The notes under the pieces were generated by a model. The model had not been told where the DNA came from. It ran no database searches and was given only the letters and a program-made list of their open reading frames with translations. A stretch of DNA of 64,000 nt from an uncultured Schlesneria sp. (GTDB lineage Bacteria; Planctomycetota; Planctomycetia; Planctomycetales; Planctomycetaceae): assembly GCA_903840265.1 (NCBI GenBank), contig CAIMFH010000088.1, forward strand, positions 1-64,000, given 5' to 3'. The position numbers and the translations under genes are program-made. Shown in pieces: positions 29,764 to 39,832 of the stretch; the stretch's first letter is position 1; each line of letters starts with the position of its first letter.

Positions 29764-31650
29764 TCAGTTTGTCGGGACCAACCGGGCTGGCGGCACCGCC
29801 GAGGCAATCTTAGAGAAGACCGTTCGCATCTGATCGGACATCGAAGCCACAGTCGTTCCCGCAGGAACGTCCAGCCAGTATCCCTTTCCGAGCCAGGCTG
29901 CTGCCTTCATCAGGTTGCGGTCTGCGACGGATCCCACGCTGACCGTGTGAACGGTGTATCCCTTGTCGATGGCAATCTTCACTTTGGCCAACACGTACGT
30001 ACAATTTGAGTCTGTGGTTGTGTAATCCGCGGCCCCGTCTCCGTTGTAGTCAAACATCGTGTTCCAGTTCCAACCCGATGGCAGGGCCGAACTGTCGCCA
30101 GAATCAATCGTGTTCGCTTGTCCGTCCGTCATCAGGATGATCGCGGGTCGCGAGCCGTCCCGTTTGTAGGTGTCCAACATTGCGATCGCGTCCTTCATGC
30201 CACCCCCCATATTCGTGGCGTCGCTGTAGTAGGCCGCTTGCTTGTACTGCATCAGCTTCGCAATCGTGGCATAATCGTTGGTGATAGGATTTGCGGCGAT
30301 ATTGATTAACGGAAACAATGGATTCGAATCGTTCAGGGTCGTTTCCATCCGGTGATTGGTATCGTAGCTGACCATCCCCAACTCATCGTCAAACCCCAAT
30401 TGCGTCAGGTAGTCACACAGCATTTGATGTCCGTCTTTGCACGCTTGAAACGGATAGTGGCGTGTTTTCCACAAATCTTTGTTTACCGAGTGCTCAGGAT
30501 AGCTTTTCATGATGTAACAGAGGTAAGTCATGCCTCCGTACATATCCTGGTACCCATAGTTGGGCAGTGCCGTACTGGTTTGCACGTAGCTGACATATCC
30601 TGACCAGCTACCACCGCTGTAGGGATAGTTGTTGTTTGTCAAACCGTATTTTGCCATCACGCTGGTTGCCGAGTATGTGTGCGTTGGCAGTACCACCGTT
30701 TGCGAAGTGCTGCCAACTTTGTAAGCGGTGATGGCAACTGACGAGATTCGCTTGCCCGAGTTGCCGCCGGTTCCGGAATAGGTTCCGGTTTTGGTCGTCG
30801 TACCACTGATGCTGAACGTTTGAGTGGCGTTATTGGTGAACGTCAGCACGACGCTTTTCATCCCGGTTGTATTGGTAATTGCGACGCTGGTTCCCTTGAA
30901 CGTGACTGTCCCTGTTACGCTGGAGCTGGTTTGAGCTTGCGAAAAGTATTGAGGCGTATAGGGGAGAGTTCCCAGCGTCAACGGTTGCAAGTCGCTCCAG
31001 ACCATGGCCAGACCGTCCTCGATCTGGCTTTGCGTCAAACCCGTGGCGACTTCGTCTGTGAAATAGCTATCGAAATTCATGGAGCGCGAGAAATCCTGTA
31101 CGATGACCATGTCGCGTGGGTCAACGAAGGCGACAGCGTCGGTACGGATCGTGGTTCCGCTGGTGGCAAACAATGACGGCACTTTGCCGTCTGGAGCCGA
31201 CGTATTGGCCCCGTCGCGACGGGCGCTGACTTTGACGACATTCGTCTGACTGGCACCCGCAGTCCAGTCGATTTTGTAGGTCTTTGACGAGCTGTCGTAG
31301 TAGCGGCGACCAAACGACACGTCGGTCGAAGCGACGTAAACATTGTTCATCTGCGCAACCGCGGCTGCCTTAATTCTGGCTTGGGACTGGGCGTAGGCAA
31401 AAACGTCGCCTGGTTGATTCCCTGCATTTGCCAAAGCATTGGTGATTTCCATCGCTCCTGCCAACGAAGCGGAATCGACGGCGGCTTGCATCTGGGATTT
31501 CGTCAATGCAGCAACGCCGATGTCGACGGCCAGCGCTGTGATGGCCAGGGCGGCGATCATGCAGATGGCACCGACCACCAGAAAGACCCCGCGTCGCGTC
31601 GGAGACATCTCCGACCATGTGGTAGGAAGCTTTTTGAAATAACAACGCAT
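29764..31650 (-). CDS. TadG-like pilus-associated protein with vWA domain
   Basis: This is a Flp/Tad-associated protein of 628 residues. An N-terminal membrane segment at about 21-43 is followed by the TadG-type stretch AVDIGVAALTKSQMQAAVDSASLAGA. A von Willebrand A domain has MIDAS residues DFSRS at 186-190 and a late LMTDGQAN strand. Between the two MIDAS parts lies a long Ser/Thr/Gly-rich insertion of about 200 residues. The start was set at the ATG at 31650, which has AAGGA eight bases upstream, rather than three codons earlier. It is last in a TadE-TadE-TadG set and probably anchored with its vWA domain outside, for adhesion or assembly. Confidence 0.85.
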   Translation of the reverse strand: MRCYFKKLPTTWSEMSPTRRGVFLVVGAICMIAALAITALAVDIGVAALTKSQMQAAVDSASLAGAMEITNALANAGNQPGDVFAYAQSQARIKAAAVAQMNNVYVASTDVSFGRRYYDSSSKTYKIDWTAGASQTNVVKVSARRDGANTSAPDGKVPSLFATSGTTIRTDAVAFVDPRDMVIVQDFSRSMNFDSYFTDEVATGLTQSQIEDGLAMVWSDLQPLTLGTLPYTPQYFSQAQTSSSVTGTVTFKGTSVAITNTTGMKSVVLTFTNNATQTFSISGTTTKTGTYSGTGGNSGKRISSVAITAYKVGSTSQTVVLPTHTYSATSVMAKYGLTNNNYPYSGGSWSGYVSYVQTSTALPNYGYQDMYGGMTYLCYIMKSYPEHSVNKDLWKTRHYPFQACKDGHQMLCDYLTQLGFDDELGMVSYDTNHRMETTLNDSNPLFPLINIAANPITNDYATIAKLMQYKQAAYYSDATNMGGGMKDAIAMLDTYKRDGSRPAIILMTDGQANTIDSGDSSALPSGWNWNTMFDYNGDGAADYTTTDSNCTYVLAKVKIAIDKGYTVHTVSVGSVADRNLMKAAAWLGKGYWLDVPAGTTVASMSDQMRTVFSKIASAVPPARLVPTN

Positions 31651-31777
31651 GAGGAACATCCTTCAAGGGCGGCAAACCGGTCGCCAACGGCCACTACGGG
31701 GTGGATGATATTCGGTAAAAACAGCAGAAAAACTGGTTGCAGACGATGGACCAAGACGCGACAGATAAGCGGATCTG

Positions 31778-32290
31778 CTACTGCACCATGGTGTTTTTCC
31801 CTTTCCGATAGACGACCGACGCGTTGATCGTGTTCTTGGTAGTCGGGTAAAACGTCACTGAGCAGATCGCAGAAAAGGGGACGCTGGCCTGGATCTTGAA
31901 CATCTGCAGATTGTTATTGGGATCGCCCAAGTCGAATGCCGTTCCGGAGGCCGTGCCATCCGCGTGAGTGATCGTGATCGTGACTTTGCTGCCATCGATC
32001 TTTTCCGCGGTCAGGAAATTTCGAATGTCTTGAATCACTTTTTGGTTGATCGTTTGTCCCGATTGCAATCTGCTGGAGTAGTCCATCGAGGCCAATCGCC
32101 CTGCTTCACGCAGGGCCGTCGTCAGCGTCTGAGCCGACACGATCTGCATCCCTGTTTGAATCGTCCCCATCGCCAGAGTGATGAAGACTGGAAGCACAAA
32201 TGCCATTTCCACGGTGGCCGCACCGCTCCGCTTCGTCGAACGAGTTTTCGCTCGCGGTGTGGGACCGGCAGTGGCTGATTCGGAACGCAT
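31778..32290 (-). CDS. TadE-like pseudopilin
   Basis: This 170-residue protein has the TadE signature: a basic N-terminus, then RSGAATVEMAFVLPVFITLAMGTIQTG, where the Glu after Val lies at the start of the hydrophobic helix as in pseudopilins processed by TadV-type peptidase. The remainder is a small globular domain. The ATG at 32290 follows AAGGA at proper spacing; a GTG six codons upstream is the alternative. Second gene of the set, 30 bases after the previous one. Confidence 0.83.
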   Translation of the reverse strand: MRSESATAGPTPRAKTRSTKRSGAATVEMAFVLPVFITLAMGTIQTGMQIVSAQTLTTALREAGRLASMDYSSRLQSGQTINQKVIQDIRNFLTAEKIDGSKVTITITHADGTASGTAFDLGDPNNNLQMFKIQASVPFSAICSVTFYPTTKNTINASVVYRKGKNTMVQ

Positions 32291-32320
32291 TTTGAGATCC
32301 TTGGACACTTGTCCAATCAG

Positions 32321-32803
32321 TTATTCATGTCGTAATACGGACTGTCCGGTCACGGTGGCATTCTTAACCCAGAATGGCGGCATCAGCGCCACTTGGTTGT
32401 AGGGAACCGTCACTTGCACGATATACAGGTGCCCCTGCTCGATGGTCGATAGTTCGACATTGGGCAGAGTGCTGTAGTTAATCGTTGACGCGTTCATGTT
32501 GGGCGTGTCAAAGACACCGGCATCGCGGATCAGAACTGTCGCGGCACCTGGTTTAATTGCCGTATTCACGATCTGCAGGACCTGAGCTTGAACCTGGGCC
32601 GTGGTGATGCCATCTGTGCTGCCGTAGCGAGCGCCACTTTTCGCGGCGGCCTTCAGCATGTGCGAAACAAACAGGACATGCCCGAATTCCATCAGCGCCG
32701 CGAGGAACATGATGAAAATAGGCAACGTCAACGCGACTTCAACCGCGGTGGATCCACGTCGGCGCGTACTGCGATTCGAATTGTGTTTATATATGCTTAT
32801 CAT
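32321..32803 (-). CDS. TadE-like pseudopilin
   Basis: This 160-residue TadE family protein has RRRGSTAVEVALTLPIFIMFLAALMEFGH at its N-terminus, again with Glu at the head of a single helix. This gene leads the three-gene TadE-TadE-TadG cluster. The ATG at 32803 has GGGA upstream and removes eight codons of unlikely extension. No tadA, tadB, tadC, cpaC-like secretin or prepilin peptidase gene is in the window. Confidence 0.83.
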   Translation of the reverse strand: MISIYKHNSNRSTRRRGSTAVEVALTLPIFIMFLAALMEFGHVLFVSHMLKAAAKSGARYGSTDGITTAQVQAQVLQIVNTAIKPGAATVLIRDAGVFDTPNMNASTINYSTLPNVELSTIEQGHLYIVQVTVPYNQVALMPPFWVKNATVTGQSVLRHE

Positions 32804-33036
32804 AGTTCCCGTCCCTGGGTCAGCCACGGCAAGGGGATGCGGTGCTCCGTCTGACCACCAGAAACTTAGTTCGCGTTTTCGGTCGTGCTGACCAAATTTT
32901 AGAAGATTTGGAAATTTTTCCGTCTTGTGGTCGGCACACGAAAATAGACCGGAACGGGTTCCAATTCGTGCGCTGGTAGCGGTCAGAAGGGCAAAGAGTC
33001 AGAATCTTGCCCAATGGACACACAAGGAGCCTTGCT

Positions 33037-34443
33037 TTGACCAATTGGCAGTCCCCGACTCGGCGCGCGTTTCTCGGTCACTACGCTGGCGGCCTCGGCG
33101 GCCTCGCCTTCGCTCACTTACTTAGTAGCGCAGCGCATTCGGAAACACGCACGCCGGGCTGGTCGGCAGTGACCGGTCGGCCGCGCGCCAAAGCGGTCAT
33201 TTGTCTGTTTCAGCATGGTGGCCCCAGTCAAATGGACTTGTTTGATCCGAAGCCCGAACTTCAAAAGTGGCACGGCAAGCCCTATCCCGGAGGGAATCTG
33301 GAAGTTCATTTTGAAAAACAACAGGGAAATGTCCTCGGCAGTCCATTCAAGTTCTCGAAGCACGGCAAATCGGGAATGGAGCTTTGCGAACTGCTTCCTC
33401 ACACGGGACAGATCGCCGACGACATCTGCCTTGTCCGTTCGATGAATACGGAATCGGTTGATCACGAGTCCGCATTGCGATTGATCCACAGCGGCAAATT
33501 CCTGGCGGGCATGCCTGCATGGGGCGCGTGGGTCAATTATGCCCTGGGCAGCATGAATGAAAATCTTCCCGCGTACGTCGTCTTGGGCGACCCCGGTGGC
33601 TTACCGGTCGATGGAGAGCGAAACTGGACTGCGGGGTTCTTGCCGGCTGTGTACCAGGGAACGCCATTTCGTTCCGGCCCATCCCCCGTTCTGAATCTCC
33701 AGTCACCATCGGGAACGTTGCCGCGGGCGAGACGAAATCAATTGGCGCTCCTGGAGGAACTCAATCGCGATCATTTGATTCGGCATCCTGAAAACGATGA
33801 GCTAGCCGCACGATTGGCGAACTTTGAAACGGCAGCGCGCATGCAAACGGCTGTCCCGGGCGCACTTGATCTGTCGGAAGAAACCGAGGCGACTCGAACT
33901 TTGTACGGCTTAGACAATCCCGCCAGTCAGGAATATGGGACGCGCTGCCTGTTGGCACGTCGCTTGATCGAGCGAGGAGTCCGATTCGTACAGATATTTC
34001 TCAACGGTCAGCCTTGGGATACACACAGCAAGAATGCCGAAAGCCTGAAGGGCCTTTGCGCGCGAACGGATCAACCGAGTGCCGCGCTTGTGCAGGATTT
34101 AAAGCAGCGAGGATTGCTGGATGACACCATTGTTCTCTGGACGGGTGAATTTGGCCGACTGCCCGTGTCCCAGGGAGCCGACGGTCGCGACCACAACCGT
34201 AAAGGATTTTCGCTCTGGCTTGCCGGAGGTGGATTCAAGCGGGGCAATGTCCATGGCGCCACCGACGAATGGGGCTACTCCGCGATTCAGGATGTCGTTA
34301 CAGTTCATGATCTGCATGCGACGTTACTTAGTTCGCTTGGGATCGATCATCATCGATTGACCCATCCCCACGAGGGACGTGAGGCCAGCCTGACCGATGC
34401 TGAAGTCACCCATGCGCGAGTCGCCACGGAATTGCTGGCCTGA
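33037..34443 (+). CDS. DUF1501 family secreted protein
   Basis: This 468-residue Tat-exported DUF1501 protein has the leader PTRRAFLGHYAGGLGG and the conserved HGGPSQMDLFDPKPEL, ARRLIERGVRFVQIF, WTGEFGRLP and GRDHN segments. The start is a TTG at 33037 supported by AAGGAG seven bases upstream; the open frame extends ten codons further. It is divergent from the TadE cluster and lies 96 bases before the vWA-PP2C-kinase triad. Linkage to the triad may be accidental, since no overlap exists. Confidence 0.9.
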   Translation: MTNWQSPTRRAFLGHYAGGLGGLAFAHLLSSAAHSETRTPGWSAVTGRPRAKAVICLFQHGGPSQMDLFDPKPELQKWHGKPYPGGNLEVHFEKQQGNVLGSPFKFSKHGKSGMELCELLPHTGQIADDICLVRSMNTESVDHESALRLIHSGKFLAGMPAWGAWVNYALGSMNENLPAYVVLGDPGGLPVDGERNWTAGFLPAVYQGTPFRSGPSPVLNLQSPSGTLPRARRNQLALLEELNRDHLIRHPENDELAARLANFETAARMQTAVPGALDLSEETEATRTLYGLDNPASQEYGTRCLLARRLIERGVRFVQIFLNGQPWDTHSKNAESLKGLCARTDQPSAALVQDLKQRGLLDDTIVLWTGEFGRLPVSQGADGRDHNRKGFSLWLAGGGFKRGNVHGATDEWGYSAIQDVVTVHDLHATLLSSLGIDHHRLTHPHEGREASLTDAEVTHARVATELLA

Positions 34444-34539
34444 ACGGACTGGCGAAATCGGCGGTACTCTGCCAAGATCGATGTCACACTTCTGACTTGA
34501 TTCCAAATCAATCTCAATTCTCTCGGGGAGATATTCTTC

Positions 34540-35208
34540 ATGGACCAAATTCCATTTGGGACCAATGATTTTGCCGAGAATCCCGAACCGCGCGTCCCCT
34601 GCGTTTTGCTGCTGGATGTTTCTGGGTCCATGGGTGGGCAGCCGATCAGCGAATTAAATGAGGGGCTGACCATCTACAAGGATGAGCTTGTTGCCGATTC
34701 GCTGGCGTCAAAGCGAGTGGAAGTCGCCGTTGTCACGTTTGGCGGCATGGTGCAGACGGCGTGTGACTTCACTACGGCCGATGCGTTTTATCCACCAAAC
34801 CTGACGGCGACGGGGGATACGCCGATGGGAGCAGCGGTGAATCAGGCGGTCGACATGGTTCACGAACGAAAACAGATCTATCGCGCTAACGGAATCGCGT
34901 ACTATCGCCCGTGGATCTTTTTGATCACCGATGGGGCTCCGACCGACGAATGGAAGTCCGCAGCTCAGCGTGTGATTGAGGGCGAAACGAGCAAGGCGTT
35001 CTCCTTCTTCGCTGTCGGTGTCGAGGGGGCCAATATGGACATCTTGAAGCAGCTTTCCAAACGAGAGCCATTGAAGCTGAAAGGGCTGCGATTTCGCGAT
35101 CTCTTTCAGTGGCTGTCAAACTCGCAGCAGTCCGTTTCGCGATCGACTCCCGGTGAGGAGGTTCCTTTGCAGAATCCGACGACGCCAGACGGTTGGGCGG
35201 CTGTTTGA
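34540..35208 (+). CDS. TerY-like vWA domain protein
   Basis: This 222-residue single-domain vWA protein resembles TerY/YegL. The MIDAS is complete: DVSGS at 26-30, T94 in the TGDTPMG loop, and D131 in [10 protein letters not shown]. It is cytoplasmic, with no signal or membrane segment. It leads a set with a PP2C-type phosphatase and a protein kinase. In the TerY-P triad of tellurite-resistance-type stress systems, TerY is proposed to bind metal and present substrates to the kinase/phosphatase pair. The ATG follows GGGGAG. Confidence 0.9.
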
Positions 35209-35258
35209 TTGCGGTCCGATGGTTCGATCTTTGATGTCTGTCGAGGTTGAATGTCCAA

Positions 35259-36023
35259 ATGATATGGAAGGTGCTCGCAAAAAGCGTTCAAGGGTTCAGC
35301 CACAAACGACTGGAAACTGTTTGTCAGGACGCCTGTCAGACTGCGGTTCACCATGTGGGTGGACTGCCTGTATTGGTGTTGACAGTGTCTGACGGGGCAG
35401 GCAGCGCTGAATACTCGGAGATCGGTTCCGAGACCGCTTGCCGTGCAGTCCAAGAGCTGATCGCTGACAAACTGAGAGATCAGACGGATCTCTTGCCTAT
35501 CACGCGTGAAGAAGCCATTTCCTGGTACGAGCACGTCCAGGCCGAGATATTGCGAGAAGCGGAATCTCGCTCCGTTCCAATACGGCAATTGGCTTGCACG
35601 CTACTCGTCGCCGTGATCGGAGGGGCCGGCGCGGCATTCTGTCAGATTGGAGACGGTGCCATCGTTATTCGCGACCAAGGCGAATTGCGTCCTGTGTTCT
35701 GGCCGCAGTCGGGTGAATATGCCAACACGACGAACTTTGTCACGTCCTCTCGAATCGATCAGGATCTGATGTTTGAATGGCGTGCTGCGCCGATCGACGA
35801 CGCGTCGATGTTTACGGACGGTTTGCAATCGGTCGCTCTGAACTATGCGACTCGCCAGGCTCATCAACCGTTCTTCACGCCCCTGTTAGACGCACTCCGG
35901 CAACATGAGGCTCCCGCCGAGCTGCTCGGACCGATGCAGTCGTTCCTGGAGTCGAAGAACCTGACCGACCGGACTGATGACGACTTGACGTTGGTTCTTG
36001 CCACGCGAATCAATTCGGTATGA
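35259..36023 (+). CDS. PP2C-like protein phosphatase of the TerY triad
   Basis: This 254-residue protein has the compact PP2C fold of the triad type. It has CQDAC near the N-terminus, VSDGAGSAEYSEIGSETA with the metal Asp-Gly pair, an internal CQIGDGAIVIRD strand, FTDGLQSV, and a C-terminal DDDLTLVLA with the last metal aspartate. Protein phospho-Ser/Thr removal is expected, opposing the downstream kinase. An ATG at 35259 is used; a TTG four codons earlier has a GAGG directly against it, too close to serve. The kinase gene overlaps its stop by four bases. Confidence 0.88.
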   Translation: MIWKVLAKSVQGFSHKRLETVCQDACQTAVHHVGGLPVLVLTVSDGAGSAEYSEIGSETACRAVQELIADKLRDQTDLLPITREEAISWYEHVQAEILREAESRSVPIRQLACTLLVAVIGGAGAAFCQIGDGAIVIRDQGELRPVFWPQSGEYANTTNFVTSSRIDQDLMFEWRAAPIDDASMFTDGLQSVALNYATRQAHQPFFTPLLDALRQHEAPAELLGPMQSFLESKNLTDRTDDDLTLVLATRINSV

Positions 36024-37999
36024 CCGACTATTTCGATTCACATGGGCATCTCGTCCGTCTGGGCAAGAAGCTAGGGTCAGGTGGCGAAGGAGCCGTCTTC
36101 GAAGTGCAAGGCGACGCGCGACTGGTCGCCAAAATCTATCACCGACCCGCAAAAGAAACTCAGGCCGAAAAGCTTGAGGCAATGACGTTGCTGGCCACGG
36201 AAGAGTTACTTCGTTTCGCGGCTCTCCCAATCGCCACGCTCTCGCAGATTCGATCAGGGCCGGTCGCCGGAATGGTGATGCCGCGAGTTCGGGATCAGGC
36301 TGAGATCCATACCCTGTATAGCCCGGCTCATCGGAAGACGCACTATCCGGAAAAAGATTGGGGCTTTCTGATTCATGTCGCCATGAACGTCGCGGCGGTC
36401 TTTGATTCTTTGCATGAGAAGTCGATTGTCATTGGCGACGTCAATCAAGGCAATGTGCTTGTTTCATCGCGCGGGACGGTCACGTTAATCGACTGCGATT
36501 CATTTCAGGTGTCGGCCAACGGCCGAGTCTATCCGTGCGAAGTAGGGGTGGCACACTTCACGCCGCCCGAATTGCAGGGGCAATCCTTTCACGGCACTGT
36601 CCGAACGGCGAATCACGACTTGTTCGGGTTGGCGATTCTGATTTTTCATCTCCTGTGCATGGGACGACATCCGTTTGCCGGCCGCTTCACTGGAATGGGA
36701 GAACCGCCACCACTCGAGAAAGCGATTGAGCAGTTTCGCTATGCCTACAGCCGCAACGTGAAAACAAACATGCTTCCCCCGCCGCAAACACTGATGGTTC
36801 CGGCCGTCATGCCAGCGCTCGCGGAGCTCTTCGAACGGGCCTTTACGAAGGGAAGTGAGCTTTCCGATGGGCGTCCGACAGCGACTGAATGGCATGCCGC
36901 TCTCCGTGACCTGAAATTGCAGCTTAAACCTTGCGCCGCCGATCTCGGCCACAAGTATCCCAATTACCTGGGAACGTGTCCCTGGTGTGCTCTAGAACGA
37001 GAAGGGGCGCCGAATCTGTTTGCCTCCGTCACGGCTCATCTTGTTGATCGGCGCGAGGGAGAACTGAACGCGAGTCTTGACCCGCTTTGGAAGCCGCTGC
37101 TGGACCTCCGGCAAGCGGCAATAGACTGTGTGCTGCAGAAGGTCTCGTTTCAAAACTTGCACGTCACGGCAAATCCGATTCCTGCCGAGATCGAACAGAA
37201 CCAGTCCTTCGCCCTCTTGTTGGGGCGCTGCTTCCTCGGAATCGTGGCATTGCTCGCTGTGAGTTGGTGGATTCCACCGATGCTGTACATTGCCACGGTG
37301 TTGTCAATTGGATTCGGAATCTGGTGGTTCGTCTTGAATCGTTACTATGGGCTGCAACCCGAAATCGATCGTCGCGAGAGGCGGCTGAGGGAATCGATTG
37401 CGCAACTTCGCGTGCTGGAGTCCGCAGGGGCAACAGAACTGGATTCACTACGGTTGGCCGTTGAGCACGAGTTTCATCGCCTGGATCTGACGAAAGCGGA
37501 AATCGAAGGATTGCGTCCGCGATACCAGGCGGACCTTGATGCTCTCAATCTGCAGCGGGAACGCCGTCAATTGGACGCGTATCTGCAATCCCATCTCATT
37601 CGTTCAACGACGATCTCATTTGTGAACGACTGGCAGAAATCGACTCTGGAATCGTTCGGGATCGAGACTGCCTATGACCTGAACGAGATCCGGTTGGCAA
37701 ATATCAACGGTCTCAGCCAAATCGCGAGGTCGGCCCTGCTCGATTGGAAAGCGGCGATTCAGAAAAAGTTCAAATTCCGCCCGCGCGAGAAGATTCCCAA
37801 TGTCGATCGCAATACGATCCTGGCGCGCTACCTGCGGCAACGGGAAGATCAGGAACAGGCTTTGATGAGCGGCCGATCATCTCTCGAACTGCTCTACAAC
37901 CAATTGCAGGAAGTCCGCTCTCGCTATCAGCAGCGATTGGATATTGCCGCTCAGAAAGCGAAGCAGGCAGAAGCCGACGTGCTGTCGCTGCCTGAATGA
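36020..37999 (+). CDS. Protein kinase of the TerY triad with zinc ribbon, membrane hairpin and HhH region
   Basis: This is a 659-residue multidomain kinase. The N-terminal kinase domain (about 1-300) has P-loop GSGGEGAVF at 19-27, K38, catalytic IGDVNQGN with D140 and N145, and IDCDSF with D158 replacing DFG. The HRD His-Arg pair is Ile-Gly. A zinc-ribbon-like C305-H311-C320-C323 cluster follows (LGTCPWC). Two membrane helices lie at about 400-418 and 421-441. A charged coiled coil (about 445-525) leads to a helix-hairpin-helix-like segment (about 530-585) and a second coiled coil to the end. This order matches known triad kinases. Targets are unknown. The ATGA overlap ties it to the phosphatase. 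Confidence 0.88.
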   Translation: MTDYFDSHGHLVRLGKKLGSGGEGAVFEVQGDARLVAKIYHRPAKETQAEKLEAMTLLATEELLRFAALPIATLSQIRSGPVAGMVMPRVRDQAEIHTLYSPAHRKTHYPEKDWGFLIHVAMNVAAVFDSLHEKSIVIGDVNQGNVLVSSRGTVTLIDCDSFQVSANGRVYPCEVGVAHFTPPELQGQSFHGTVRTANHDLFGLAILIFHLLCMGRHPFAGRFTGMGEPPPLEKAIEQFRYAYSRNVKTNMLPPPQTLMVPAVMPALAELFERAFTKGSELSDGRPTATEWHAALRDLKLQLKPCAADLGHKYPNYLGTCPWCALEREGAPNLFASVTAHLVDRREGELNASLDPLWKPLLDLRQAAIDCVLQKVSFQNLHVTANPIPAEIEQNQSFALLLGRCFLGIVALLAVSWWIPPMLYIATVLSIGFGIWWFVLNRYYGLQPEIDRRERRLRESIAQLRVLESAGATELDSLRLAVEHEFHRLDLTKAEIEGLRPRYQADLDALNLQRERRQLDAYLQSHLIRSTTISFVNDWQKSTLESFGIETAYDLNEIRLANINGLSQIARSALLDWKAAIQKKFKFRPREKIPNVDRNTILARYLRQREDQEQALMSGRSSLELLYNQLQEVRSRYQQRLDIAAQKAKQAEADVLSLPE

Positions 38000-38023
38000 G
38001 ATGGCTGACCGACGACATGCGGT

Positions 38024-39832
38024 TCAGCCTGCTTTCGCAAATCTTTCGTATAACTTCGAATATGCTCCCGCAGCAGCGACCAGTTCCGAGTGAGTGCCGC
38101 GCTCGATGAGGTGCCCGTGGTCGAGCACCAGCACCTGATCCGCATGCCGGATCGTGCTGAGCCGATGTGCGACCACGAAACTGGTGCGCCCAGATAACAG
38201 CACGTTTAGAGCACGTTGCAGGCGAACCTCGGTCTGCGGATCAATGCTGCTGGTGGCTTCGTCCAGGATTAACAGTCGGGGATCGGCCAGCAGTGCGCGT
38301 GCAAAGCAGACCATCTGCCGCTCGCCCTGTGACAATTGGCCACCACGTTCGCCAACAGGAGTGTCAAAACCTTGTGGTAACGATTCCATCAGATCGAGAC
38401 AGTCCAGCCGCCGACAAACTCGCAGCAGTTCTTCCTTTGTTGCGCCGGGTTTGGCGAAGCGAATATTGTCTGCCACGGTCCCCATGAACAAGAAGTTCTG
38501 TTGCAGAACCAGGCCGAATTGCGTGTGCAGGGATTTCGTTCGCAGCCGGTTCAGATCCTGGCCATCGATCAAAACTCGGCCTGTCGTTGGCAGGTAAAAC
38601 TTGGCCAGCAAGTTGATGATCGAAGTCTTGCCGCTTCCTGTGTGTCCTACCAAGGCTATCGTTTGACCCGGCTGAGCTACGAAGCTGATCTTGTGTAAGA
38701 CCGGGCGGCCAGGGTCGTACGCGAACGACACCTCATCGAATTCGACTTTTCCTTCTAGACGCAAGATTGGCAATGCGTCTGGTGCATCCTGCCACTCAGG
38801 TTGACGATCCAACAGCGAGAACAACCGTTCGGCCCCGGCCATCGCGGTCATCGCCTGGTTGTACTGGTTCCCCAGAATCGTGAGTGGCGCGAAAAAAACA
38901 TTCGCCATGAAAAAGAAGCCGACCAACTCACCGACGTCCGTCGCGTTGCCTGAGTTCAGCACGCGCCAACCGCCGATCACAAGCAGCAAGCCCACGAACA
39001 CTTGCGTATTCAACTCGACAAGGGGGAGGAACAACCCGTGGGTTCTCATCACTGCTGTGTTGTAACGTGAATGATCAGTCACAAGCTGGTGAAACAGGCG
39101 GGCGTTCTCTTGCTGGCGAACAAATCCTTGCGTGACGCGAATGCCGATCACTGATTCCACAAGCGTCGCAGTCACTCGGCTGAAGGATTCTCGCATCTGT
39201 CGTAACAGCACACTCAATTTACGATGAAAGTACCGATTGATTCCCCACAGAATCGGAGCCATTCCCAGAACTAACAAAAACAGCACTGGATCCAGCCAGA
39301 TCATGAATCCGGCCGCGACCCCCATTTGTCCGACGGCCACCAGGCTGACGAACAGGACTTCCTGAACGCCGATCCGCACGTCTTCGATATCGGAAATCAT
39401 CCGGCTGATGATCCGTCCGACTTTTGTCTTGTGGAAGTAGCTCATTGGCATCGTCTGCAGATGAGCGAAGATGGCATTTCGCAAGTCGAAGACGACGGCT
39501 TCGCCTAGCTCCAATGCGTAGCGCTGGCGGAAGTGCATTGTCACTTGAGTGAAGAGTGCCAGGAACGCGAACGCGACGGCTCCCCAAATGACTCCGTTCA
39601 CATCGCTGCGCTGGATCGGCCCATCGATCACCGCGGCCAGCACCCACGACAGAGCCGGAAGCTGAATCGCTCTGAACACAACGGCGACAAGTAGCCAGTT
39701 ACGCTGTCGAGCGTATGGCTTCATAAATTCCATCAGTCGCGCGATCAGGCGAAAATCGAGTGGCCGGGAATCGACGTGGTCCTCGTGCTGCCCGAGTTTT
39801 GTGAGTGCTGTCGCCTGAACCGTCTGCGCCAT
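38024..39832 (-). CDS. ABC exporter, fused membrane and ATPase domains
   Basis: This is a 602-residue half-transporter of the MsbA/multidrug type. Six helices lie in residues 40-330. The nucleotide-binding domain has Walker A GHTGSGKTS at 396-404, Q-loop near 444, signature LSQGE at 500-504, Walker B LLILDE at 520-525 and H-loop H556. It would act as a dimer in the inner membrane, exporting lipid or a hydrophobic compound. No partner half-transporter is adjacent, so a homodimer is likely. It converges with the triad kinase, 24 bases apart. Confidence 0.93.
   Translation of the reverse strand: MAQTVQATALTKLGQHEDHVDSRPLDFRLIARLMEFMKPYARQRNWLLVAVVFRAIQLPALSWVLAAVIDGPIQRSDVNGVIWGAVAFAFLALFTQVTMHFRQRYALELGEAVVFDLRNAIFAHLQTMPMSYFHKTKVGRIISRMISDIEDVRIGVQEVLFVSLVAVGQMGVAAGFMIWLDPVLFLLVLGMAPILWGINRYFHRKLSVLLRQMRESFSRVTATLVESVIGIRVTQGFVRQQENARLFHQLVTDHSRYNTAVMRTHGLFLPLVELNTQVFVGLLLVIGGWRVLNSGNATDVGELVGFFFMANVFFAPLTILGNQYNQAMTAMAGAERLFSLLDRQPEWQDAPDALPILRLEGKVEFDEVSFAYDPGRPVLHKISFVAQPGQTIALVGHTGSGKTSIINLLAKFYLPTTGRVLIDGQDLNRLRTKSLHTQFGLVLQQNFLFMGTVADNIRFAKPGATKEELLRVCRRLDCLDLMESLPQGFDTPVGERGGQLSQGERQMVCFARALLADPRLLILDEATSSIDPQTEVRLQRALNVLLSGRTSFVVAHRLSTIRHADQVLVLDHGHLIERGTHSELVAAAGAYSKLYERFAKAG

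Follow-up and report, generated by a model that had tools for sequence, protein, structure and literature searches.

A probable planctomycete counterpart of the E. coli yegL-pphC-yegI genes, encoding a vWA protein, a PP2C phosphatase and a predicted membrane kinase

Three genes related to yegL-pphC-yegI

We analysed a window of 64,000 nucleotides from an uncultured Schlesneria sp. (Planctomycetota; assembly GCA_903840265.1, contig CAIMFH010000088.1, positions 1 to 64,000, forward strand). The open reading frames (ORFs) and their translations place genes for a von Willebrand factor A (vWA) protein, a PP2C phosphatase and a Ser/Thr kinase, in that order, at 34540-37999 on the + strand. The last two share an ATGA at 36020-36023, which ends one gene and starts the next and was read directly in the sequence. 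A first-pass annotation of this DNA had described three adjacent genes with this overlap, and the ORFs, the sequence and Pfam all confirm the description. Each protein scored above the Pfam cut-off (VWA 3.2e-10, PP2C_2 1.7e-48, Pkinase 1.5e-09). None of the three had an NCBIfam match over cut-off, and unnamed PHROGs families matched most of the length of each (kinase, 37888, 2.2e-109; vWA, 28389, 4.4e-94; PP2C, 37072, 5.4e-26). The PP2C gene also has an alternative upstream start, TTG at 35247 (35247-36023), which leaves 38 bases between the vWA and PP2C genes; the ATG start leaves 50.

Alignments with E. coli K-12 proteins lead us to conclude that this three-gene unit is almost certainly the planctomycete version of the YegL-PphC-YegI module. 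The window vWA is 63% identical to YegL over 221 positions (E 3e-97) and the PP2C protein 34% identical to PphC over 255 positions (E 5e-38), both along the whole length. The kinase is 35% identical to YegI over 660 positions, nearly end to end, and this alignment spans the G-D-V-N and D-x-D motifs, a Cys/His cluster, a hydrophobic hairpin and a helix-hairpin-helix (HhH) tail. Gene order is also common to the two: E. coli carries yegL-pphC(yegK)-yegI (b2073, b2072, b2070) as vWA-PP2C-kinase on one strand. The E. coli set differs in having yegJ between pphC and yegI and the Hsp70 gene yegD adjoining; the planctomycete genes have no yegJ among them and no Hsp70 gene beside them.

The window vWA has all five residues of the metal ion-dependent adhesion site (MIDAS; D26, S28, S30, T94 and D131), according to the MIDAS pattern in the available text of PMC11090510. 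These residues were invariant in 10 of 10 aligned vWA rows, among which that of locus L006 is a near-exact repeat of the window. The predicted metal site is complete by this pattern. The PP2C translation shows SDGAG, GDG, FTDG and TDDDL stretches.

Comparison with L006, the nearest relative, gave nonsynonymous (dN) and synonymous (dS) rates of 0.004 and 0.39 for the vWA gene, 0.053 and 0.47 for the PP2C gene, and 0.035 and 0.42 for the kinase gene, or dN/dS of approximately 0.010, 0.113 and 0.084. Judged from these rates, the triad genes are under purifying selection. The constraint on the vWA is strong and not unique, because the neighbouring ABC transporter gene gave similar values (dN 0.006, dS 0.36). 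Within the kinase, 29 of 300 residues of the kinase domain differ (94 changed codons); the Cys/His segment and the HhH-like segment (residues 512-592) have no residue changes with 8 and 24 changed codons, respectively.

Table 1. Genes of the triad and predicted segments of the kinase; positions are those of the window.
Feature	Position	Strand	Basis
YegL-type vWA protein, 222 aa	34540..35208	+	E. coli YegL alignment, Pfam VWA
PphC-type PP2C phosphatase, 254 aa from ATG	35259..36023	+	E. coli PphC alignment, PP2C_2
YegI-type Ser/Thr kinase, 659 aa	36020..37999	+	E. coli YegI alignment, Pkinase, kinase fold
Kinase domain, residues 1-300 (K38, G139-D140-V141-N142, N145, D158-C159-D160)	36020..36919	+	Residue conservation among 29 relatives
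Cys/His cluster, residues 301-330 (C305, H311, C320, C323)	36920..37009	+	Conservation
Probable membrane hairpin, residues 389-445	37184..37354	+	Hydropathy peaks 396-414 and 421-439
Long-helix stretch, residues 446-511	37355..37552	+	Modelled helices 421-496 and 498-523
HhH-like segment, residues 512-592	37553..37795	+	Profile match 8.1e-37 (the window is a seed of that profile)

Architecture of the kinase

The window kinase reads VIGDVNQGN at 137-145 and LIDCDSFQ at 156-163, where IGD stands for HRD and DCD for DFG. Both motifs had been called altered at first pass. They are present as described, yet they are no peculiarity of this copy, and we rejected them as an oddity since G-D and D-x-D occur in 29 of 29 kinase relatives. 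Based on these alignments IGD and DCD are marks of the family. Residues K38, G139, D140, D158, D160 and Q163 were likewise kept in all 29, and N145 in 19. The altered motifs would also be the ground for reading the protein as a pseudokinase scaffold, and the absence of the catalytic-loop Asn from 10 of the 29 relatives points the same way. However, K38, D140, N145 and D158 are all found in the window kinase, with the K, D and D in every relative. In E. coli YegI a Ser replaces the catalytic Asn that the window keeps at position 145, and YegI nevertheless autophosphorylates, as reported in the available text of PMC13232886. We consider a pseudokinase very unlikely.

An AlphaFold2 model built from six aligned sequences reached a mean predicted local distance difference test (pLDDT) of 78.3 and a predicted template modelling score of 0.52; with 4 rows the kinase was poorly modelled (pLDDT 57). 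In the better model, residues 1-303 match solved kinases, with Z scores of 18.6-19.6 for the 50 best PDB rows. Kinases filled the rows of this comparison, which bears on the kinase domain and not on the tail.

The cysteines and the histidine that follow the kinase domain are strongly conserved, C305 and H311 in 28 of 29 relatives and C320 and C323 in 29 of 29, and more than 300 further residues follow them in the window kinase. This stretch was poorly modelled, with block pLDDT of 49-54 over residues 301-330 and values below 50 at residues 308-317 and 329-343. The conserved C-H-C-C pattern of an earlier zinc-ribbon proposal was recovered. At this low confidence the model showed no ribbon, and we are less sure of the putative zinc ribbon, a name that comes from conservation. 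The two-helix hydrophobic hairpin noted at first pass is upheld by two hydropathy peaks (Table 1). AlphaFold2 placed helices at 389-414 and from 421 on, at low confidence (block pLDDT 46-66), and the long modelled helices that follow suggest that residues 446-511 are probably a coiled coil.

The C-terminal tail had been read as a nucleic-acid-binding HhH, and part of that reading survives. In the model, short helices make up most of residues 521-580 (block pLDDT 86-92) and a long helix follows, consistent with an HhH-like tail. We are less sure of this feature too, as the Pfam scan gave no HhH match for the window kinase. Pfam HHH_5 was found at E <= 0.05 in four of 10 aligned relatives; E. 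coli YegI gave the strongest of these matches (1.6e-4), still below the curated cut-off. A profile of the segment found 21 of the 29 kinases, its own 10 seeds (the window included) among them. The remaining eight gave no match; of these, L030 ends in an FGE-sulfatase domain, L029 has an Lcl_C match below cut-off, and L031 leaves its contig. Searched against PDB sequences, the segment profile matched weakly to DNA polymerase IV (0.086), L32e (0.013-0.016), REV1 (0.2) and the ComE operon protein (0.35), in parts that we take to be HhH or similar; the two best rows of that search were chance repeat matches.

HhH hairpins that bind nucleic acid typically carry a Gly-hydrophobic-Gly motif. The corresponding hairpins of the window kinase, SFVNDW and NGLSQI, both lack Gly-x-Gly, with the first Gly of hairpin 2 kept, while E. 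coli YegI has the motif in both. Among the 21 HhH-bearing relatives it occurs in hairpin 1 of 13 (11 in register, with L024 and L043 by offset match only) and in hairpin 2 of 15; it is missing from both in the window, L006, L007, L047, L027 and L028. The proposal of a DNA/RNA reader is thereby weakened for this lineage. Since the segment is strongly constrained yet without Gly-x-Gly hairpins, the alignments suggest that it may bind a conserved partner, perhaps not generic DNA or other generic nucleic acid. A more specific version is doubtful in our judgement: that in this lineage the YegI-type HhH tail gave up clamping nucleic-acid backbones and became a specific site for docking or for a ligand, with the strongly conserved vWA, kept even on another contig, as the output of the switch.

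Other C-termini were seen among the relatives. At L030:9549-12743 the kinase and Cys/His cluster are fused to an FGE-sulfatase-like C-terminus, which the tail at L083:6430-8406 resembles by eye only. A YegI-type kinase at L044:7974-10130 ends in an additional C4 zinc finger of topoisomerase type (Pfam Zn_ribbon_Top1), and L081:6421-8574 and L082:6423-8570 end similarly, by eye.

Distribution, neighbours and mobility

We surveyed 392 Planctomycetota genomes with cut-offs of E <= 1e-30 for the kinase and E <= 1e-25 for the vWA, scoring the best few candidates per genome (3 kinase, 7 vWA), so that all counts are lower bounds. The kinase was found in at least 14 genomes and the vWA in at least 17, and all 14 kinase genomes also had the vWA. 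Within the genus both were present in the same genomes, at least four of 15. Eighteen planctomycete kinase loci were read (the window, L006, L007 and L024-L038), and all three genes lie together in 15, in the order vWA-PP2C-kinase in 14 and kinase-vWA-PP2C in L036. We also read 13 other loci, namely E. coli K-12, one viral contig, and 11 picked among 40 listed of 50 matching plasmid records. All 13 have the three genes in order; yegJ or an insertion sequence element intervenes at two of these loci, and at one the kinase is broken. Joint occurrence had been set beforehand as the check on the triad, and on these counts the reading was not refuted. Two single loci deserve mention: at L031:1409-3872 a second, more distant vWA lies between PP2C and kinase, and in an E. 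coli record (L049:7959-9901) the yegL and pphC ORFs are full-length but the adjoining yegI is split into three.

One genome (G396/G406) has a split triad. A PP2C-kinase pair is all that L007 holds (L007:7244-9965, contig C1), and a lone vWA gene lies on contig C58 (L084:9220-9888), with no PP2C or kinase gene within 9 kb on either side. This vWA is 91% identical to that of the window. The triad is kept in this genome though split.

A DUF1501 gene lies 96 bases upstream of the vWA gene on the same strand, and an ABC transporter gene lies downstream of the kinase gene, convergent to it. The transporter matches the PADLOC mad3 model (3.6e-26), but MsbA-like exporters far better (2.5e-125). Farther upstream, a three-gene row on the - strand (29764-32827) has outer genes matching TadE or TadE/G-like families; its largest gene (29764-31659) also matches vWA weakly. 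We looked for further conserved neighbours at five other planctomycete loci and saw none, as the ten flanking proteins there belonged to unrelated families or to no family. For an empty-site comparison, strong matches to both DUF1501 and the ABC transporter were found in five other genus members (G392, G393, G396, G401 and G405), on different contigs or, in G405, ~2.1 Mb apart, although the DUF1501 gene matched may be a paralogue. We rejected a recent insertion in this genome; GC content is 0.54-0.58 across 33-39.5 kb, and 18 kb are collinear with L006 at 90%, indicating that this lineage did not acquire the triad recently.

Outside the planctomycetes, the triad occurs on plasmids recorded for Pseudomonas, Cupriavidus, Mesorhizobium, Sinorhizobium, Sphingobium, Methylocystis and Deinococcus. 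In two E. coli records labelled 'plasmid' it has its usual chromosomal neighbours, and these records are silent on mobility. Seven IMG/VR contigs match the triad, two by short or weak pieces only, and two of 50,697 phage records match half the kinase at 27-29%. In a tree of the 29 kinases, planctomycete and other rows are mixed (4 label changes), but the branches are long and the inner nodes poorly supported, and a single origin may also account for the tree. The mixing suggests that the triad may have been transferred between lineages.

This spread bears on the possibility that the set serves as a mobile module against phages or in plasmid conflict, in which the HhH or Cys/His part would sense infection or incoming DNA and phosphorylation acting through the vWA would shut down a cell function. 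The patchy distribution and the plasmid, IMG/VR and phage records fit such a role. Additionally, the available text of PMC11090510 treats TerY-P-like triads with an OB-fold kinase as stand-alone antiphage systems, and that of PMC7699616 names T7-like phages for TerY-P. In contrast, none of the three neighbour genes scanned is a named defence gene, the mad3 match of the transporter being outdone by MsbA-like exporters; Pfam recognised no effector domain in the triad proteins; and the collinearity with L006 speaks against recent arrival. We regard a dedicated conflict module as rather improbable.

Proposed working and comparison with known systems

Overall, the best explanation of the locus, to which we give a probability of about 0.8, is a membrane kinase/phosphatase/vWA switch of the YegL-PphC-YegI type. 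It is supported by homology that runs nearly end to end in each of the three proteins, their common order, the co-occurrence of the genes, a triad retained in one genome although split, purifying selection, a catalytic K/D/D present in 29 of 29 relatives, and the reported behaviour of YegI as a membrane autokinase dephosphorylated by PphC. Several points weigh against it. In 34300-38300 no terminator-like site and no sigma-70-like site on the + strand was found (two lie on the - strand, and other promoter types were outside the scan), so the genes form a putative operon judged by their spacing. The test for co-occurrence of kinase and vWA (Fisher p 3.7e-23) assumes independent genomes, an assumption that their relatedness violates. 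Three genomes, G121, G032 and G351, match the vWA weakly (E 6.6e-27 to 1.2e-30) and have no kinase match. Two kinase loci have neither partner adjoining, both in a 59% complete genome (G123) with a vWA gene on another contig. Finally, the primary work on YegI and PphC (2018; Rajagopalan and Dworkin 2020) is known here through citing papers, and no test of the role of the vWA was found in the literature searched.

YegI is said, in the title of the 2020 work by Rajagopalan and Dworkin, to be a kinase without conserved motifs that localises to the inner membrane. By analogy, a short hairpin of two helices would anchor the window kinase in the inner membrane. The kinase domain and Cys/His cluster precede this hairpin, the probable coiled coil and HhH-like tail follow it, and both parts would lie in the cytoplasm. 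The Cys/His cluster may bind zinc, and either it or the tail would sense or dock a ligand. The available text of PMC13232886 describes YegI as a membrane Ser/Thr autokinase that phosphorylates itself on serine, a modification that PphC removes. Similarly, binding of the ligand would allow the window kinase to autophosphorylate and to phosphorylate a target, and the PP2C protein would reset it. The vWA protein could be the adaptor or main substrate through which the on/off state reaches other proteins, a role to which we give nearly, but not quite, an even chance. As to purpose, the patchy spread is best fitted by a stress or defence switch passed from genome to genome, an idea that we put forward tentatively and at somewhat less than even odds.

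Across the planctomycete and plasmid copies the constant parts are the catalytic K/D/D, the Cys/His cluster and the vWA metal site, and the variable parts are the HhH hairpins and C-terminal domains. This pattern, together with a vWA that is unlinked yet kept, draws attention to the contact between vWA and kinase. For the E. coli set, the available text of PMC7535926 gives the in vivo role as unknown, and that of PMC13232886 notes that earlier work found no condition promoting yegI and pphC expression. Our search under E. coli, TerY and domain names found no paper on a planctomycete copy of the triad; most subscription papers were outside it.

At first pass the locus had been taken for a TerY-P copy detached from the classical ter genes. 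The part concerning ter genes holds, as TerB and TerD are absent from the whole genome, where a TerC-family gene is found on a different contig; the label of a detached TerY-P copy is not supported, the closest relative found being E. coli YegL-PphC-YegI, around which the 16 kb shown contain no ter gene. A TerY-P triad proper would be a metal-sensing phosphorylation switch tied to tellurite- or restriction-type systems, here working alone. We compared it (Anantharaman et al. 2012) through the description in the available text of PMC11090510, where TerY-P combines a TerY-like vWA and a PP2C with a kinase that carries a fused zinc ribbon, and where some TerY-P-like systems stand alone, so that the link to ter or restriction genes is not strict. 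The window shares the three domain types, including a Ser/Thr kinase with a conserved C-H-C-C cluster directly after its kinase domain.

Against this, the hydrophobic hairpin, coiled coil and HhH-like tail of the window kinase are absent from the TerY-P description as available, and the hairpin and HhH tail belong to YegI, to which the kinase aligns over its whole length. The ter, CoCoNuT or restriction links of TerY-P are likewise missing among the neighbours scanned, which are TadE/TadG-like, DUF1501 and ABC transporter genes. PADLOC models gave no match for the window vWA or PP2C and for the kinase weak kinase-domain matches only (best 3.1e-10); PADLOC also leaves YegL and PphC of E. coli unnamed, while its TerY model does match, at 5.5e-5, the vWA of L032, a distant triad from another planctomycete. 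We judge TerY-P proper unlikely.

The TerY-P-like defence system with an OB-fold (Gao et al. 2020, through the available text of PMC7699616 and PMC11090510) has the same three-part make-up of vWA, phosphatase and kinase. The window kinase differs in having no Pfam OB-fold match, its PADLOC STK_OB match (2.6e-4) covers only residues 124-191, and its modelled tail is helical. Taken together, these sequence comparisons place the window set as a further member of the already partly studied E. coli-type gene set.

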